Shown here one piece after another: positions 2,924 through 12,371 of a DNA stretch of 22,396 nt. Where the stretch lies: positions 1-22,396 of the IMG/VR virus record IMGVR_UViG_3300032235_000326; one strand, written 5' to 3'. This DNA is from a virus. The position numbers and the translations under genes are program-made. Numbering within the stretch: position 1 is the first letter of the stretch; each line of letters opens with the position of its first letter. Below the pieces are notes generated by a model, which did no database searches, was not told the DNA's origin, and worked only from the letters and a program-made list of their open reading frames with translations.

Positions 2924-4648
2924 ATGGCAGATAAAACATTTTTCGGTAGGTTACAAAAATTATTTTCAACCAAAACCATCGTTCGTAAAACATCTAAGGG
3001 TGTAAAGGTAATAGACACCGATGAGTATCAGAGTTTATCAACAAACTTAGTAGATAGATACACTCGTATGCGTACTCCGCAATATAGTGGTGGATTGATA
3101 GAATCAGCGATGGCTTATCAGCAAGTTCGTATAGATTTATTCAGAGATTACGATGGTATGGATAACGACCCAATCATTGCATCAGCATTAGATATATACT
3201 CCGATGAAGCGACTGTAAAAAATGAATTAGGCGATGTATTAAAAATTAATTGTGCTAATGAGAATACAAAAGAAATATTGCACAACTTATTCTATGATAT
3301 TCTTAATGTAGAATTCAATTTATGGCCTTGGACAAGAAACTTAGTTAAATATGGTGATTTCTTTTTACAATTAGAAATTTCACCCGAATTGGGTATTGTA
3401 AACGTAATGCCAATGTCTGTTTACGAAACATCGAGAGTAGAAGGATTCGATGACCAAAACCCACAAAGAGTTAAATTCGTATATTCACCATTCCAAAATC
3501 CAAACAGCGCCTTATCAATGGCATCTGCAAAAAAAGAATATGAAAACTATGAAGTAGCACACTTCCGTTTATATTCTGATTCAAATTTTTTACCATATGG
3601 TAAATCTATGGTAGAAGGTGGTAGAAGAGTTTGGAAACAATTAATGTTAATGGAAGATGCGATGTTAATCCATCGTATTATGAGAGCACCTGAAAAGAGA
3701 ATCTTTAAGGTAGATGTTGGTAATATTCCACCAACCGAAGTTGATAACTACATGCAGAAAATTATCAACTCATCTAAGAAAGTTCCATTCTTAGACCCAC
3801 AAACGGGAGAGTATAACTTAAAATATAACGTTCAAAACTTAATCGAAGATTACTATATGCCGGTTCGTGGTAGCGATAATGGTACATCTATCGATACATT
3901 GAAAGGATTGGAATATAATATGATTGAAGATATCAATTACTTAAAAGGTAAATTGATGGCAGCATTGAAGATTCCAAAAATCTATTTAGGATATGAAGAA
4001 GATGTTAGTGGTAAAGCTACATTAGCTGGACAGGATGTTCGTTTTGCAAAAACAATCGAAAGAATCCAAAAGGTATTAGTATCAGAATTAACTAAGATTG
4101 CAATTGTACACTTATATGCACAGGGGTTAGATGCCGCTGATGATTTAGATTTCTCATTAGAGTTAACTACACCATCTAAAATATATGAGCAAGAAAAAGT
4201 TGAATTATATACATCTAAAATAGCATTAATTACACAAATGCAACAAACCAAAATGTTCTCTAAAAAATGGATGTACGATGCTATTATGAATATGAATCCT
4301 GAAGAGCAAGATGAGTTAACAGTTGATGTAATAGAGGATACTAAACAAATGTTCCGTTTAACATCAATTGAAACGCAAGGTGTTGACCCGGCAAAAGAAA
4401 CAGGAACAGAAGAACCAACTAATGTAGAAGAAGAAATTCAAAAAATAAAAGAAGAATTAGAGGAAGAAGGCAAAGTTGGTAGACCAAAAGACCCGGTTAG
4501 ATATGGTAAGGATGACCATCATTTAGGAAGAGACCCATTGGGTATTAAGAGTTTAAAGCAAAAAACTCAAAGAGAATCCAAAGAAATATTTAAAGATATG
4601 TTGGGTAACAAAAAAACTATTTTGATGGAAGATTTGGATAAAAAGTAA
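2924..4648 (+). CDS. 20: portal vertex protein, T4 gp20-like
   Basis: Forms the dodecameric ring at one head vertex through which DNA enters and leaves, and nucleates head assembly. The 574 residues compare with 524 in T4 gp20. Recognisable gp20-family features are the region around residues 80-100 with DPIIASALDIYSDE, the middle segment with FRLYSDSNFLPYGKS followed by RRVWKQLMLMEDA, the stretch IHRIMRAPEKRIFKVDVGN, and the later LKIPKIYLGYEED. The C-terminal tail after about residue 490 is charged and low in complexity, with a GRPKDP basic turn. It lies between the terminase block and a run of head-core genes that leads to the prohead protease, as expected. The start ATG has an A-rich leader and no Shine-Dalgarno sequence. 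Confidence 0.95.
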   Translation: MADKTFFGRLQKLFSTKTIVRKTSKGVKVIDTDEYQSLSTNLVDRYTRMRTPQYSGGLIESAMAYQQVRIDLFRDYDGMDNDPIIASALDIYSDEATVKNELGDVLKINCANENTKEILHNLFYDILNVEFNLWPWTRNLVKYGDFFLQLEISPELGIVNVMPMSVYETSRVEGFDDQNPQRVKFVYSPFQNPNSALSMASAKKEYENYEVAHFRLYSDSNFLPYGKSMVEGGRRVWKQLMLMEDAMLIHRIMRAPEKRIFKVDVGNIPPTEVDNYMQKIINSSKKVPFLDPQTGEYNLKYNVQNLIEDYYMPVRGSDNGTSIDTLKGLEYNMIEDINYLKGKLMAALKIPKIYLGYEEDVSGKATLAGQDVRFAKTIERIQKVLVSELTKIAIVHLYAQGLDAADDLDFSLELTTPSKIYEQEKVELYTSKIALITQMQQTKMFSKKWMYDAIMNMNPEEQDELTVDVIEDTKQMFRLTSIETQGVDPAKETGTEEPTNVEEEIQKIKEELEEEGKVGRPKDPVRYGKDDHHLGRDPLGIKSLKQKTQRESKEIFKDMLGNKKTILMEDLDKK

Positions 4649-5825: not shown

Positions 5826-6590
5826 ATGCCAGCAGTATCTAAAGCACAACAAAGATTTATGGGTATGGTGCATGCCGCTGATAAGGGAGAAACTCCTGCA
5901 TCACCGGAAGTTGCGAAGGTAGCAAAATCTATGGATGATAAAGATGCTAAAGATTTTGCATCAACAAAGCATGATGGTTTGCCTGAAAAAATAAAAGAAA
6001 TAGTATTAGCTGAATTACGTTCAGTTAGAGCTATTCAAACCGACTACGCAAAAGTATTGGATGCTATGGAAAAGCATTTATCGGCATACAAACAATCCAA
6101 AGGAACTCCATCCGAAAAACAACACATTCAGCAATTAAAAACATTAACCGCACAAAAGAAAAAATTAGCAGCAGAATTGGATGCTAAAGTTAGTGGTATG
6201 TATAAAGATGCTGAATTAAAGGTTGATGAAATGAATACGACCGGAAATGTTGATGGATATGGTACTCCATTTGCATTTGGTAAGGGTGAGGATGAAAAAG
6301 CTAAAGGAAAAAGACAAGCCGATTTGACTGGCTATTCGGTAGTTAAAGAAAATCGTTGGTTAGAATTAAAAAGAGATGAATCAACTGCACAATCTAAAAT
6401 AGGAAAAGGTATTTCTAATATCAATAAACAATTAGCAGAAATGGAAAGATTTCTCAATTGGTATGGAAAAATTAAGAATGAAAGTGGTGTAGATAATAAA
6501 AGTTATTGGAAAAGAACAAATAGTCATATTTATAGTATAAAGGAAAGACTATTAAAATTAGACCAAAAAATTAGACAAATTTCAGAATAA
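5826..6590 (+). CDS. DUF3008-like N-terminus fused to a helical domain
   Basis: A 254-residue protein. Residues 1-60 (SKAQQRFMGMVHAADKGE, then ASTKHDGLPEKI) match, from memory, the small domain called DUF3008, common in T4-like phages and some bacteria and of unknown function. A coiled-coil stretch follows at about 65-135. A motif around TTGNVDGYGTPFAF (about 139-152) then leads to a C-terminal helical domain from about 176 (NRWLELKRDES, RFLNWYGKIKNESG, YWKRTNSHIY). I recall the last domain as recurrent in pelagic T4-like phages, without a known role. The stop overlaps the next ATG by one base (TAATG), so translation is probably coupled. Position in the head block suggests a core or internal head protein; this is inferred. 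Confidence 0.85.
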   Translation: MPAVSKAQQRFMGMVHAADKGETPASPEVAKVAKSMDDKDAKDFASTKHDGLPEKIKEIVLAELRSVRAIQTDYAKVLDAMEKHLSAYKQSKGTPSEKQHIQQLKTLTAQKKKLAAELDAKVSGMYKDAELKVDEMNTTGNVDGYGTPFAFGKGEDEKAKGKRQADLTGYSVVKENRWLELKRDESTAQSKIGKGISNINKQLAEMERFLNWYGKIKNESGVDNKSYWKRTNSHIYSIKERLLKLDQKIRQISE

Positions 6591-6904
6591 TGAAAATATC
6601 TCAATTAAAAGAGCTTGTTAGACAAGTAGTAAAGGAAGAAAACGATTATCAACAATTATTCAAACATATGTTGGATAAGACTGGTAAGGATATCAATTCA
6701 ATGGGCGATGATGAAAAGAAGAAATTCTTCAACGCCGTAGATACTGCTTACAAAGCAAAATCAGAAGGAAAATTGAGAGGATATAATGAGGCTGAATTAA
6801 CAGCTGGCCAAAAGAAGATTGATACCGATGGTGATGGTGAGATTGAAGGTTCAGACTTAGCAGCATTGAGAGCCAAAAATGAAGGGGCTCAAAAAAAAAA
6901 GTAG
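6590..6904 (+). CDS. EF-hand-like small protein, zero-frame product of a probable -1 frameshift gene
   Basis: A 104-residue protein. The N-terminus is an amphipathic helix (MKISQLKELVRQVVKEE) of a type common at the start of small proteins in pelagic T4-like phages. Near the C-terminus lies one calcium-loop-like sequence, DTDGDGEIEGSD (about residues 81-92), with Asp at loop positions 1, 3, 5 and 12, Gly at 6 and Ile at 8, as in EF-hand and dockerin loops. The gene ends in a run of ten A bases read as Lys-Lys-Lys and then TAG. The last two sense codons form the in-frame heptamer A_AAA_AAG, a classic -1 slippery site. The reading frame that continues beyond has no start codon of its own, so a longer fusion of 243 residues is likely. 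The ATG overlaps the previous stop by one base. Confidence 0.85.
   Translation: MKISQLKELVRQVVKEENDYQQLFKHMLDKTGKDINSMGDDEKKKFFNAVDTAYKAKSEGKLRGYNEAELTAGQKKIDTDGDGEIEGSDLAALRAKNEGAQKKK
6895..6904 (+). promoter_or_regulatory. -1 frameshift signal: A_AAA_AAG followed by TAG
   Basis: In the zero frame of the upstream gene, bases 6895-6901 read A_AAA_AAG and 6902-6904 are TAG. This heptamer is the one used in Escherichia coli dnaX. It is the end of a ten-A run (6891-6900). Slipping back one base makes the next codon GTA at 6901 and opens 139 further codons. A purine stretch GAAGGGG (6881-6887) lies seven bases upstream, roughly where dnaX has its stimulatory Shine-Dalgarno-like sequence. I saw no obvious strong downstream hairpin. 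Transcriptional slippage or a homopolymer error in the assembly are alternatives. Confidence 0.6.
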
Positions 6905-7320
6905 TTAATGAAAGTGTAGTTGAAGGAATACTTGCAACTATAACATTAGCGATATTGGGTAAAGTAGTTATCTATTTTATTTATGAATTAGCTAAAAAAG
7001 TAGGTAACTACATAAATGGTAACAACGAATACAAAAAAGCTGTTACTAAAATATTAGAATCAATATCTAATAATAGACAAGCTACAAACGATATAGCTAA
7101 ATTATTAGATAGCAACGATGGAATAAATAACGGAGTTGCCGATAGAATTGTGAAATTAGGATATGTACAAACTCAAATTACAAAAACGAGTGATAGTACA
7201 AATGGTGAGTTGGATGAAACTGAATTAAAAAATCATTTAAAAACTGCGTTAATAAAAGCGTGGGAAGATAAAGGATTGACTGATAAAGCGGCTGATAAAG
7301 TAAAAAAAGATATAAGATAA
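6901..7320 (+). CDS. membrane-segment protein in the -1 frame, no start codon of its own (frameshift extension)
   Basis: From the slippery site this frame reads 139 codons to a TAA, immediately before the protease ATG. There is no ATG between the upstream in-frame stop (TGA at 6880-6882) and the membrane segment. The first possible alternative start is a TTG at 6955, inside the hydrophobic stretch, which would cut the segment. The encoded part begins VVNESVVEGIL, has a hydrophobic, probably transmembrane segment (about GILATITLAILGKVVIYF), and continues with a helical, charged region ending ADKVKKDIR. I do not recognise the family. The simplest reading is a C-terminal extension of the EF-hand-like protein made by -1 frameshifting, giving a membrane-associated minor form. 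If the A run is miscounted by one, the two would be a single ordinary gene. Confidence 0.65.
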   Translation, partial: VVNESVVEGILATITLAILGKVVIYFIYELAKKVGNYINGNNEYKKAVTKILESISNNRQATNDIAKLLDSNDGINNGVADRIVKLGYVQTQITKTSDSTNGELDETELKNHLKTALIKAWEDKGLTDKAADKVKKDIR

Positions 7321-7911
7321 ATGAATAAAGGATTATTAATAGAAACTCATTTGTTCGAAGCTAAGCTCGTAGAGCAAGATAATGGGACATATTTGGTGAA
7401 AGGAATTTTACAAAGAGCAGGTGCTCCCAATCAAAATCATAGAAGATATCCTAAAGAAATATTGGAGAGAGAGTGTAAAAAATATGAACAACTTATCAAA
7501 GAGCGTAGAGCATTGGGTGAATTAGACCATCCGGACTCTCCTGTTATTAATCTTAAAAACGTTTCTCATAATATCAGAGAAATTGGTTGGGATGGTGATG
7601 ATGTTGTTGGTGTAGTAGAAATTCTTTCAACTCCATCTGGAAATATCCTTAGAGAATTATTAAAAAATAATATTCGTTTGGGTATTAGTAGTAGAGGACT
7701 AGGTTCGGTAAAAGAACTAAGTGATGGTACTTTAATGGTTCAGGAAGACTTCGAATTAGTTGGATGGGATTTTGTATCAAACCCTTCTACACATGGGGCA
7801 TTTATGGCACCAATGAACGAATCAAAGCAATGGGCAAAGGTTGCAGAAGAATGTGGAAAGTTCTGCAAAGCACAAGATTTAATGAGAGAAATCATAATAG
7901 AATTAAACTAA
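7321..7911 (+). CDS. 21: prohead core protease, T4 gp21-like
   Basis: Serine protease that cleaves scaffold, core and capsid proteins during head maturation. The 196 residues (T4 gp21: 212) show the family hallmarks: the segment RAGAPNQNHRRYPKEIL at about 32-48, the catalytic-His region GELDHPDSP with His70, and the catalytic-Ser region GISSRGLGS with Ser124, followed by EDFELVGWDFVSNPS at about 142-156. This is the assemblin-like fold shared with herpesvirus and HK97-type proteases. The N-terminus contains Glu-bearing sites (LLIET, LFEA) that could be self-cleavage points. The ATG follows the previous stop directly. Small head-core proteins lie on both sides, and scaffold and capsid genes lie downstream, the usual 21-22-23 order. 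Confidence 0.95.
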   Translation: MNKGLLIETHLFEAKLVEQDNGTYLVKGILQRAGAPNQNHRRYPKEILERECKKYEQLIKERRALGELDHPDSPVINLKNVSHNIREIGWDGDDVVGVVEILSTPSGNILRELLKNNIRLGISSRGLGSVKELSDGTLMVQEDFELVGWDFVSNPSTHGAFMAPMNESKQWAKVAEECGKFCKAQDLMREIIIELN

Positions 7912-8337: not shown

Positions 8338-8766
8338 ATGTTAAAGTTAAAAGACCTTCTAAATGAGCAAGAGGAGTTTCAACAACTTCCTACTGAAATC
8401 AAAAAACACTTTTTGGAAATAATTTCTACATTTGGTCAATTTGGTGAACAAATGAATAGAAAATCTGATATCAGAACTATTGCTGAAACTTTAGGTGGTA
8501 TTGCAGATGCGGCACAAGAATATACTTTGAGAGAAGGTGGTGATTGGTTTGATAGAGTTACTATTAAACGTAATATGAAGGAATTGAAAGCATTGCACGA
8601 AAAGTTCCAAAAAGAATCATTAGAAGCAAAAGCACAAGAACAAAGATTGGAAGCTCTATATGAAGATATGGGGCACGTATTAAATAGATACTTCGAAATA
8701 GCAGATGTTTCTGAAGAAGTTATGAGAAATAGATTAGGTCTAAAAGAATGTAAAACTTGCAAATAA
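8338..8766 (+). CDS. helical hypothetical protein, head block
   Basis: A 142-residue protein with a short amphipathic start (MLKLKDLLNEQEE) similar in style to other small proteins of this block. The middle (about 68-112) is a long charged helix, probably coiled coil (MKELKALHEKFQKESLEAKA). It ends with a Cys pair, CKTC, at residues 138-141. No enzyme signature is visible. The ATG at 8338 is preceded by TAGTAT and no Shine-Dalgarno sequence. Its stop shares a base with the next ATG (TAATG), so its translation is probably coupled to the Dps-like protein. I recall similar proteins next to such genes in other phages only vaguely, so the call stays hypothetical. Confidence 0.8.
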   Translation: MLKLKDLLNEQEEFQQLPTEIKKHFLEIISTFGQFGEQMNRKSDIRTIAETLGGIADAAQEYTLREGGDWFDRVTIKRNMKELKALHEKFQKESLEAKAQEQRLEALYEDMGHVLNRYFEIADVSEEVMRNRLGLKECKTCK

Positions 8767-9137
8767 TGGAAGAATTAGCATCATTATTATTACAAAGTAG
8801 AACACAAGCTCATTCATTTCATTTGGGTGTTAGAGGTGTAGGTTCACATTCCGCACATTTAGCATTGGGAGATTACTACGATTCAATCGGTGGATTAATA
8901 GATGGGTTGGTAGAAGTATATCAGGGTAAAGAAGGTTTGATTCAATTATCTGGCATCGGAGTATTGGATAAGAACAATGATATCAAAAACATAATTAATT
9001 ATTTTGAAAAATTATGTGTAATGGTTGCAAAGTTAAGACAAAATCCTAAATTACAAGATAGCTGGATTCAAAACGATATAGATACTGTTGTATCTTTATT
9101 ATATAAAACTAAATATAAATTAGTAAACCACCAATAA
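8766..9137 (+). CDS. Dps/ferritin-like four-helix protein
   Basis: A 123-residue protein. The segment starting at His19 (HLGVRGVGSHSAH, then YYDSIGGLIDGLVE) aligns without gaps to the ferroxidase region of Dps as I remember it from E. coli. His19, His31, Asp46 and Glu50 fall at the same spacing as Dps His51, His63, Asp78 and Glu82. The fifth ligand position is Gly35, with Asp36 next to it. The later helix region (about 73-120) fits the last two Dps helices. Dps is about 167 residues, so this form lacks the N-terminal part. Similar short phage proteins are, I believe, filed as a family of unknown function. It could bind iron or DNA, or use the fold only structurally. I start at ATG 8766 because it overlaps the previous stop; a TTG nine bases upstream lies inside the previous gene. 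Confidence 0.8.
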   Translation: MEELASLLLQSRTQAHSFHLGVRGVGSHSAHLALGDYYDSIGGLIDGLVEVYQGKEGLIQLSGIGVLDKNNDIKNIINYFEKLCVMVAKLRQNPKLQDSWIQNDIDTVVSLLYKTKYKLVNHQ

Positions 9138-9143
9138 TAAGTT

Positions 9144-9341
9144 ATGTTGATTATTGATGTTAAAGATGGAAACATCGAAAAAGCATTAAAAGCTTACAAG
9201 AGTAAAGTAAAAAGTGTAAAGCAAATTGAGCAACTTAGAGATAGAAAAGAGTTTGAAAAACCATCTGTAACTAAGAGAATTAATACTCAAAAAGCTATAA
9301 GAAAAGAGAAATTACAAAATATTTTTGATAAAAACAAATAA
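9144..9341 (+). CDS. rpsU: ribosomal protein bS21 homologue
   Basis: A 65-residue, strongly basic protein that I recognise as bS21 of the small ribosomal subunit. It has the family start (MLIIDVKDG, then IEKALKAYKSK), a middle with QLRDRKEFEKPSVTKR at about 30-45, and a basic C-terminal helix. The length and the start resemble the flavobacterial form rather than the enterobacterial one. bS21 sits near the 3' end of 16S rRNA. In Bacteroidota it takes part in hiding the anti-Shine-Dalgarno sequence, and phage-encoded bS21 genes are known from environmental phages, where they were linked to late infection. Here it ends the head-core transcript just before a terminator. Its ATG has only AATAATAAGTT upstream and no Shine-Dalgarno sequence, so any feedback control of the kind reported for host rpsU would not apply. 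Confidence 0.93.
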   Translation: MLIIDVKDGNIEKALKAYKSKVKSVKQIEQLRDRKEFEKPSVTKRINTQKAIRKEKLQNIFDKNK

Positions 9342-9529: not shown

Positions 9530-10726
9530 ATGGCAAATTCAAAATTGTTAAAAGAAGCAATCGCAGATGCTAAAGCGGTTAAAGAAACTGCATTGGCTAA
9601 CGCAAAGCTTGCTTTAGAAGAAGCCTTCACACCAAGACTACAGTCTATGTTAACTCAAAAGTTAAGAGCTGAAGCTGAAATGGAAGGGGACGAGGAGCAA
9701 GTAGATGAAGAATTAGATTCAACAGGAATCGGTTCTTCTACATCTAATCCTACTTTGGATGCGCACACTGAATTCGAAGCTGGTTCTACTGAAACTACAT
9801 CTGGTGAGCCAGGTGCACAAGTAGATGACTACAAAAAAGTAGCAGATATCAACGAAGAAGAAGGCGCAGAAGAAATGGATAAAGATACTGAAATCGCAGA
9901 ATTAAAGGCTAGATTAGCTGAATTAGAAGGCGAAGATTCAGAAGAAGAAAATCCTTTTGCAGCTGCAGAAGGTGAAGATGGAATGGATGCAGAAGCAGAC
10001 CCATTCGCATCTATGGAAGGTGATGGCGAAGAGTACGATGTTACTGGTATGGAACCAGAAGAATCTGAAGAAGATGACATGGACTTAGAAGCAATCATCA
10101 GAGAGTTAGAAGCACAATTAGGTGATGAAGAAGGTTCAGAAGAAGTACCTGCAGAAGAGCCAATGGCTGAAAATTTAGCAGATGGTTCAGAAGCTGGAAC
10201 TGACAAAGGCGAAGACCCTAAAGTAGTTGTAACTAACGAAGCTGAAGAAGAATCAGATGAAGTTGACTTAGAAGAAATTTTAAGAGAAATGGAAGCTGAT
10301 ATGAAAGGCGACGAAGAGAAAGTTGATGAAGCTGAAGAAACCGAAAAAGATAAGGAAATCGAAGAAGCTTACAAAACTATCAAATCATTACAAAGAACTA
10401 TTAACGAAGTAAACTTATTAAACGCTAAGTTATTATTCGCTAATAAATTATTCAGAGCTCACAACATGACTAACGAACAAAAAGTTAAAGTGATTGAAAC
10501 TTTGGATAGAACAAAATCAGTAAGAGAGGTTAAATTGGTATTCTCTACATTAGCAGAGAACTTCAAATACACTTCAACTAACAAAACAGCTAAAAAAACA
10601 ATCAAAGAAGGAATCGCTTCTAAAGCAGTTAAATCAACTGCACCGAAAGCAGCAGCTAAGCAAGTAATTGCAGAATCTGCAGATTTTTCTAATAGATTTA
10701 AGAAATTAGCAGGTATTATTAAGTAA
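9530..10726 (+). CDS. 22: prohead scaffold/core protein, T4 gp22-like
   Basis: Internal scaffold on which the capsid shell assembles; it is then degraded by the prohead protease. The 398 residues exceed T4 gp22 (269). The start is an Ala/Lys-rich helix (about 1-55). The centre (about 50-265) is extremely acidic, rich in Glu, Asp, Gly and Met, and contains near-repeats such as DMDLEAIIRELEAQL and EVDLEEILREMEADM. The C-terminal part (about 275-335: INEVNLLNAKLLFANKLF, VKVIETLDRTKSVREVK) is the most typical gp22-like segment. The last 30 residues are basic and end in FKKLAGIIK. The gene sits between the protease and the capsid gene, as in T4, and shares a short gap and probably a transcript with the capsid gene. 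The longer acidic centre may reflect a larger core or looser constraint on length. Confidence 0.92.
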   Translation: MANSKLLKEAIADAKAVKETALANAKLALEEAFTPRLQSMLTQKLRAEAEMEGDEEQVDEELDSTGIGSSTSNPTLDAHTEFEAGSTETTSGEPGAQVDDYKKVADINEEEGAEEMDKDTEIAELKARLAELEGEDSEEENPFAAAEGEDGMDAEADPFASMEGDGEEYDVTGMEPEESEEDDMDLEAIIRELEAQLGDEEGSEEVPAEEPMAENLADGSEAGTDKGEDPKVVVTNEAEEESDEVDLEEILREMEADMKGDEEKVDEAEETEKDKEIEEAYKTIKSLQRTINEVNLLNAKLLFANKLFRAHNMTNEQKVKVIETLDRTKSVREVKLVFSTLAENFKYTSTNKTAKKTIKEGIASKAVKSTAPKAAAKQVIAESADFSNRFKKLAGIIK

Positions 10727-10757: not shown

Positions 10758-12371
10758 ATGGACTTAAAAAAATTAATGAACGGAGCTAACCCACAAAGCA
10801 TTATGCTTGAGCAAACTAGAGGTTTGAAAGCAAAGTGGGAAAAAACAGGATTGTTAGAGAACGCAGGTTCTGAAACATCTAAGCATGGTATGGCAGTAAT
10901 GTTAGAAAACCAAGCAAAACAATTATTAGACGAGGCTACAAGAACAGGTACATCTTCAGGTTCTGAAGAGTGGGCTGGTGTTGCGTTACCTTTAGTAAGA
11001 AGAATCTTTGGTTCTATCGCATCTAAAGAGTTCGTTTCAGTTCAACCAATGAACTTACCTTCAGGTCTTATTTTCTACATGGACTTCAAATATGGTACTA
11101 ACCAAACAGGTAGACCAGCACAAAACGAATCTTTATTCGGTAATGGTGGTGCTTTTGGTAAAGATTCTCAATCTCCAGCTGGTAACAAATTAGGTTCTAC
11201 TCAAGCTACTGAAGGTGGTCTTTATGGAGCAGGTCGTTTTGGATATACAATCAACGATATCGATACAGCAGTTGTTGCAACTATTGCATCAGCTTCATTA
11301 TCAGATATCAATTTTGATTTGAAAAACTCAACTTTCTCTGCATCTTTCGCAGCTGAAAAAATCAAAAAATTATCAGTAGAATTGCCAGCAGGTGCTGATT
11401 GGAATGGTGCAAGAGCATTTGAATTAGTACAATCAGGTTCTGGATTTACTTTCTATCCTGAATATACTGCAGTAAACGCAGGAACTGCTAGTTTCTTCGC
11501 AGCATATACTTCAGCTGTAACTACTGGTTCAGTAGGTGCAACTTTATCATACCACGCACAACCAACTGATATCTCTCGTGGTGACTTCGAAGATAGAGGT
11601 TCAAACTTGGATATTCCAGAAATTGAATTAGAATTGAAATCAGAACCAATCGTTGCTAAGACTCGTAAGTTAAAAGCAATTTGGACTCCTGAATTAGCGC
11701 AAGATTTGAACGCATACCACTCTGTAGATGCAGAAGCGGAATTGACTCAAATGTTAAGTGAGTACATCTCTTTAGAAATCGACTTAGAAATCTTAGAAAT
11801 GTTACAAGCTAACGCTTTCACAACTGATTATTGGTCTGCAAGAGTTGGATATGATTACAATTCAGTAGCAAACGCTTTCCAAGTAGATTCAAATGCAGCA
11901 GCAGCTTCAGCATACACAAAATCAACTTGGTATCAAACTTTAGGTATCAAATTACAAAAGGTATCTAACAAGATTCACCAATTAACAATGAGAGGTGGAG
12001 CAAACTTCTTAGTAGTTTCTCCTAACGTAGCAACTATCTTAGAATCAATGAATGGTTTCTCTGCTAACCCAGGTAAAGACGCTTTATCTTTCGCAGCAGG
12101 TGTAACTAACATCGGTTCAATCTCAAATAGATACGATGTTTACAAAAACCCTTACATGACTGAGAACGTAATCTTATTAGGTTTCAAAGGTTCTAACTTC
12201 TTCGAAACCGGAGCAGTTTACGCACCATATGTACCATTGATTATGACTCCTTTAGTGTACGACCCAACTAACTTCACTCCTAGACGTGGTGTTATGACTC
12301 GTTACGCTAAGAAAATCGTAAGACCAGAATTCTACGGTAAGATTATCGTTGATGGTATCAACACTCTTTAA
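10758..12371 (+). CDS. 23: major capsid protein, T4 gp23-like
   Basis: Shell subunit of the head. The 537 residues compare with 521 in T4. Family features include VSVQPMNLPSGLIFYMDFKYG at about 94-114 (T4 has a closely similar VQPMNSPTGQVF), and the segment KTRKLKAIWTPELAQDL followed by HSVDAEAELTQMLS and LEIDLEILEML, which parallels T4 KSRQLKAQYSIELAQDL. The N-terminal 59 residues look like the removed propeptide. LLDEA gives a Leu-x-Glu/Ala site after Glu59, close to the T4 site after Glu65. Codons look strongly selected: TCT, GGT, AAC and TTA recur. The leader before the ATG is A-rich without a Shine-Dalgarno sequence. A strong terminator follows 22 bases after the stop. Confidence 0.97.
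   Translation: MDLKKLMNGANPQSIMLEQTRGLKAKWEKTGLLENAGSETSKHGMAVMLENQAKQLLDEATRTGTSSGSEEWAGVALPLVRRIFGSIASKEFVSVQPMNLPSGLIFYMDFKYGTNQTGRPAQNESLFGNGGAFGKDSQSPAGNKLGSTQATEGGLYGAGRFGYTINDIDTAVVATIASASLSDINFDLKNSTFSASFAAEKIKKLSVELPAGADWNGARAFELVQSGSGFTFYPEYTAVNAGTASFFAAYTSAVTTGSVGATLSYHAQPTDISRGDFEDRGSNLDIPEIELELKSEPIVAKTRKLKAIWTPELAQDLNAYHSVDAEAELTQMLSEYISLEIDLEILEMLQANAFTTDYWSARVGYDYNSVANAFQVDSNAAAASAYTKSTWYQTLGIKLQKVSNKIHQLTMRGGANFLVVSPNVATILESMNGFSANPGKDALSFAAGVTNIGSISNRYDVYKNPYMTENVILLGFKGSNFFETGAVYAPYVPLIMTPLVYDPTNFTPRRGVMTRYAKKIVRPEFYGKIIVDGINTL

Follow-up and report, generated by a model that had tools for sequence, protein, structure and literature searches.

Gene A of a T4-like phage and the reading frame behind it, here called B, very probably form a cassette for programmed −1 ribosomal frameshifting, located in the prohead-core region, as judged from the sequence of the locus and of its relatives. 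The window, that is the whole stretch of DNA analyzed, comprises 22,396 nt (positions 1 to 22,396 of IMG/VR record IMGVR_UViG_3300032235_000326). Most ribosomes would translate gene A through CAA AAA AAA AAG and terminate at the adjoining TAG, to give a soluble protein of 104 aa. A minority, delayed by a 3' hairpin, would let tRNA-Lys slip back one base on A_AAA_AAA or A_AAA_AAG and would then read on through GTA GTT AAT GAA and beyond, producing a 243-aa A-B fusion with a hydrophobic helix and a helical bundle. We infer both that the slip occurs at the ribosome, not at RNA polymerase, and how efficient it is. The features of the window on which the argument draws are as follows.

2924..4648, plus strand: gp20-type portal protein (PF07230)
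6590..6904, plus strand: gene A (0 frame), 104 aa, with helical N-terminus MKISQLKELVRQVVKEE, EF-hand/dockerin-like loop DTDGDGEIEGSD and tail GAQKKK-stop
6881..6887, plus strand: Shine-Dalgarno (SD)-like GAAGGGG, 7 nt before the heptamer; not conserved and probably no stimulator
6891..6900, plus strand: A10 run, the proposed slip site, with two in-phase heptamers
6892-6898, plus strand: in-phase heptamer A_AAA_AAA
6895-6901, plus strand: in-phase heptamer A_AAA_AAG
6901..7320, plus strand: frame B (−1), 139 aa, without its own start; predicted C-terminal part of the 243-aa fusion
6902..6904, plus strand: 0-frame stop TAG, adjoining A_AAA_AAG
6904..6950, plus strand: RNA hairpin, proposed 3' stimulator (from folding and shuffle z; consensus inner stem about 6913-6945)
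6906..6908, plus strand: third-frame TAA, close behind the A-run
6964..7011, plus strand: second predicted RNA hairpin, inside B, clear only in the window's subclass
7321..7911, plus strand: gp21-type prohead protease (Peptidase_S77, PF03420, E 1.5e-29), directly downstream of B; N-terminus MNKGLLIE
8757-9137, plus strand: DUF5856 protein (PF19174, E 1e-11), between protease and bS21
9144..9341, plus strand: phage ribosomal protein bS21 (PF01165, E 1.6e-12), of relevance to whether the host ribosome uses SD sequences
10758..12371, plus strand: gp23-type major capsid protein (PF07068, E 4.4e-77)

Slip site and reading frames

The 3' end of gene A reads AAT GAA GGG GCT CAA AAA AAA AAG TAG, ending at 6904. 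The −1 frame is open from GTA (6901) to TAA (7318-7320), a length of 139 codons, and the ATG of the next gene adjoins it directly at 7321. The earliest start-type codon of frame B is a TTG at 6955, within the hydrophobic segment, and the predicted fusion comes to 104 + 139 = 243 aa. Each of these points agrees with the initial annotation, which had described an in-frame A_AAA_AAG followed at once by TAG, a −1 frame of 139 codons abutting the next gene and lacking an ATG before its hydrophobic segment, and products of 104 and 243 residues. The slip-site run is not a matter of chance, because it is the only A-run longer than seven in the window and such runs are rare elsewhere in related loci. 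Within 577 kb of related loci, all 75 A-runs of at least ten lie at the slip site; a wider, redundant set of 1.98 Mb holds eight other contexts with runs of that length, several of them apparently non-coding.

Scanning IMG/VR with A, B and B profiles yielded 83 distinct loci in which the start of B could be aligned, and the gene A search kept 80 relatives. Relative to the upstream frame, B is at −1 in 80 of the 83 loci, in frame in three and at +1 in none. An in-phase heptamer is present in every one of the 80 frameshift loci (A_AAA_AAG in 67, A_AAA_AAA in 13), as are an A-run of 9 to 12 (A9 in 1, A10 in 50, A11 in 28 and A12 in 1) and a 0-frame stop 0-4 nt past the run. Gene A tails ending in QKKK or EKKK correspond to A10, and those ending in xKKKK to A11. 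The initial annotation had proposed comparing frame relation and run length in homologues, and both comparisons went its way: run length is always consistent with the frame, and the three in-frame loci belong to one clade, which lacks the hairpin. The single A9 run occurs in L206, and the sequence upstream of B in L206 and L207 is the only variant in which a sense codon (AAT) separates the heptamer from the stop; the EF-hand part of gene A has apparently been lost in these two loci. A third-frame stop is also kept 4-8 nt past the run in all 80 loci, a frequency above that expected from codon usage alone (about 10^-2.5 over 26 clusters).

The upstream protein varies among relatives through insertions and added modules, and the slip site and B remain unchanged. 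Insertions between GYNE and AELT or ELT are found in L008, L010, L013, L020 and L024, and modules have been added to the C-terminus of A in L015, L047 and L098. Module borders often fall at an E-A or similar step, and the modules always lie upstream of the slip site; possibly the prohead protease cleaves the gene A product as a modular polyprotein. Some relatives possess only A. In these, gene A ends without an A-run and the protease gene follows directly, and B was absent from seven such contigs, one of 209 kb, when the whole contigs were searched. No cultured phage record in the collection and no bacterial genome carries B. The family spans a large group of uncultured T4-like phages, whose hosts are probably Bacteroidota.

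In three distinct loci of one clade (L071, L094 and L095, with near copies), B is in frame and has its own ATG, beginning MIKLKSLLIEVMKKKSVNEN and overlapping the stop of the upstream gene. The in-frame B has the leader MIKLKSLLIE, in which LIE ends at residue 10, and its homologous part starts exactly at the predicted frameshift entry point. The possession of its own ATG in this clade indicates that B is a real protein. The in-frame B genes still hold an A10 run (ATG AAA AAA AAA AGT), where no frameshift is needed. Their synonymous-shuffle z values are −0.7 to −1.1 (about −0.9 on average), meaning that the hairpin is absent. In-frame relatives without the hairpin provide an unusually clean natural comparative control.

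The downstream hairpin and the nature of the proposed slip

The GAAGGGG that the initial annotation noted seven bases upstream of the heptamer is indeed present at 6881-6887, but its proposed role as a Shine-Dalgarno-like stimulator did not hold up. The SD match within 18 nt upstream is 3 nt or shorter in 22 of 39 representatives, and Bacteroidia ribosomes do not use SD sequences (PMC9976891). A dnaX-style upstream stimulator is unlikely, since GAAGGGG is not conserved and the Bacteroidia do without SD use; as a conserved feature of the family it was rejected, many relatives having no such element.

Evidence for a stimulator is found instead on the 3' side. The 135 nt from position 6886 of the window give a folding z of −5.3. 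With dinucleotide shuffling, the 80 nt after the A-run have a mean z of −3.05 in the 39 representatives, 82% of which fall below −2, and a mean of −3.10 over all 80 loci. Most windows in the surrounding 1.3 kb lie between +0.2 and −0.8 (about −0.4), and a few inside B reach −1.3 to −1.8. When synonymous codons were shuffled with the B protein kept, the mean z over the 80 loci was −3.33, with 73 of the 80 below −1.64, and the hairpin is therefore not a by-product of the amino acid sequence. The value for L001, which is identical to the window here, is −2.4. Predicted hairpins are weak in L098, L208, L012 and L024 (in both windows tested) and in L253 (in one window).

Covariation was seen in the VNEN class, the larger subclass (alignment A2, 29 sequences), where columns 24-71 are U-A in 12 sequences and C-G in 11. 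At least five simultaneous U-A/C-G switches map to a tree built without the hairpin region, and the covariation score of alignment A2 exceeds all 500 shuffles and all slid registers. The hairpin of the window's own subclass shows little covariation, its sequences being too alike. The inner stem starts about 8 nt past the heptamer in alignment A2 and about 11-12 nt past it in the window's class, which has a short outer stem at the stop; the usual spacing from heptamer to structure is 5-9 nt (PMC5009743).

Is it the ribosome that slips, or RNA polymerase? RNA polymerase slipping on the A10 run would yield mRNAs with one extra A or two fewer, and normal decoding of these would give the same A-B fusion. 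This is the main remaining rival, which the initial annotation had not considered. With 9-12 A's (10-11 in nearly every locus), the run exceeds what a single heptamer requires, and in all 80 loci it reaches the homopolymer length of about 8 or more that marks transcriptional slippage. A-runs longer than seven are known sites, and A9 works in Thermus dnaX (PMC3711429). The third-frame stop would cap the product of a shift in the opposite direction, a modest point. However, the strongest additional conserved element is a downstream RNA hairpin, which is still untranscribed when the polymerase slips, and the hairpin is under synonymous-site selection and missing where B is in frame. A fixed shift direction among orthologues points to ribosomal and not transcriptional slippage, for which shifts in two directions would be the sign (PMC3711429), and the direction among the 80 frameshift loci is always −1. 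The in-phase heptamer is equally invariant, and a run as short as A9 was found once only. Ribosomal slippage is favored because of the selected hairpin, its loss in the in-frame clade and the constancy of direction and heptamer, and we regard polymerase slippage as the source of the fusion as improbable, although both processes may contribute. In E. coli, A_AAA_AAG ranks with the most efficient −1 motifs (PMC4066793).

Two further explanations would dispense with slippage altogether. Ribosomes could reinitiate past the stop of A, or initiate there at a non-AUG codon, and so make B by itself, with no fusion. The clade in which B starts at its own ATG speaks for this; elsewhere, however, no start codon before the hydrophobic helix is common to the frameshift loci. 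NTG codons before the end of that helix are scattered or absent, which makes independent initiation unlikely, the neighboring ATG codons are in the wrong frame, and the conserved part of B starts right at the slip site. An internal start for B was accordingly rejected as effectively excluded, and a separate B is very improbable. The frame break could also be a sequencing or assembly error, for which a homopolymer is the classic spot, or the gene could be decaying. The same layout is nevertheless found in 80 distinct sequences from many independent metagenomes, B is under purifying selection and the hairpin is selected, so that error or decay is also effectively excluded, with hardly any probability left to it. 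The −1 ribosomal frameshift proposed in the initial annotation thus gains strong support from comparison: direction and heptamer hold in 80 of 80 loci, B is conserved from the junction onward and the hairpin is selected.

The two proteins and their place in the head operon

In alignments of relatives, B is conserved from residues V2 and E4, right from the junction, to its end, and a dN/dS of about 0.35 reflects purifying selection. It consists of a hydrophobic helix (about residues 4-32) followed by a helical bundle. The Kyte-Doolittle 19-residue maximum is 1.8-2.4 in every member tested, and the AlphaFold model is helical and confident (pLDDT 86), with its first helix at residues 4-32. No significant match to B was obtained among solved structures and no useful family match in Pfam or PHROGs. 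The single match in BFVD (E 2.1e-5, TM 0.82 by query length) is to an uncharacterized 204-aa protein of an uncultured Caudovirales phage and offers no clue to function. For A, AlphaFold gave a poor model (pLDDT 57), and there was no significant PHROG match. The initial annotation called gene A EF-hand-like: D78, D80, D82, G83, I85 and D89 of the loop are invariant in relatives, although the Pfam matches to EF-hand and Dockerin_1 (E 0.015-0.06) score below the curated cut-off. The calcium-loop motif that it gave to the 243-residue form, taken as a loop in B, was rejected, as that EF-hand-like loop is not conserved among relatives; the conserved loop is the one in A.

A T4-type terminase and the gp20-type portal gene lie upstream of gene A. 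In the T4 map, core genes 67 and 68 are followed by gene 21, and by analogy the position of A and B between portal and protease would correspond to this 67/68-21 region. To our knowledge, T4 has no frameshift at the core-gene position. In T4, internal proteins reach the prohead by means of short capsid-targeting sequences at their N-termini, and gp21 cleaves after L/I-x-E (PMC9026906). In the window, A (LKE8), the protease (LIE8), the scaffold candidate at 9530 (LKE9) and the gene at 8338 (LNE10) have an L-x-E that ends at residue 8-10, and an N-terminal L-x-E at this distance was found in no other window ORF checked. N-termini of this kind, which resemble T4 capsid-targeting leaders and the gp21 cleavage motif, cluster in putative prohead-core genes (6590, 7321, 8338 and 9530), and also occur in the in-frame B of L071 and L094. 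The putative leader of A, together with MIKLKSLLIE on the in-frame B, suggests that the frameshift lends A's leader to B. Judged by position and short motifs, both A and B are probably taken into the prohead core, to which A would contribute a targeting leader and B a membrane-type helical domain; our best guess for B is a minor protein of the core or of ejection that is membrane-active. More tentatively, and with the balance of probability against it, the frameshift could be viewed as a dosage device: a set minority of core subunits would carry B into the head, the gp21-type protease would release it and it would be ejected into the next host, one clade having instead given B its own leader, without the hairpin.

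The isolate capsid proteins closest to that of the window are from a Microcystis phage (54.8%) and Flavobacterium phages (52.6%). These capsid relatives, the phage bS21 and the low G+C content together suggest a Bacteroidota host. The bS21-encoding Bacteroidetes phages (PMC9723584), which are from freshwater and have predicted Bacteroidetes hosts, likewise combine a head block of terminase, portal, protease and capsid genes with bS21. In those phages bS21 is on the reverse strand, whereas here it is on the same strand as the head genes, and no frameshift is mentioned in the text of the paper.

Relation to known recoding systems

The cassette resembles the −1 frameshifting of dnaX and of IS1/IS3-type elements in its heptamers, its direction and its 3' stem-loop at a spacing of roughly 5-9 nt. 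It differs from them in its longer A-run, in the stop placed right after the heptamer and in its genes, which form an unrelated family within the head operon of a phage. It also has no conserved upstream SD element, a stimulator found in dnaX and IS911, though not universal. In phages, capsid-gene frameshifts are known in T7/T3, A2, A118/A500 and PSA (PMC5009743), and the suggestion in the initial annotation that a head-block frameshift would be new was consequently too broad. The cases of T7/T3 gene 10, Lactobacillus phage A2 and Listeria phages A118, A500 and PSA share with ours the placing of the frameshift, toward the 3' end of a head gene, and a minority product with a C-terminal extension. 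There, however, the major capsid protein is extended, often by an Ig-like domain, whereas here a 104-aa putative core protein of T4-like phages would gain a hydrophobic helical domain. The lambda tail assembly chaperone gpG/gpGT likewise comes from a small structural gene in which a −1 shift extends a minority of the product; no sequence relation to it was found. A tail assembly chaperone was rejected as the identity of our gene, which lies between portal and prohead protease and not before a tape-measure gene, and which has no significant PHROG match. The T4 core and internal proteins (gp67, gp68, IPI-III and Alt, with leaders cut by gp21) share the place next to gene 21, and the L-x-E near residue 8-10 would mark a candidate leader of the same type. 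No sequence similarity to them was found, and the cleavage and packaging of A and B are putative.

A search of open-licence papers returned no report of a frameshift at this position or in this gene family. A frameshift family between portal and gp21-type protease thus appears to be unreported, the mechanism itself being known. With it, the head-assembly region of T4-like phages gains a recoding family that is widely conserved, in hosts that are probably Bacteroidota with ribosomes that ignore Shine-Dalgarno sequences. Gene callers will overlook B or annotate a truncated gene that starts at TTG, and predicted proteomes of these phages therefore lack a conserved 243-aa protein.
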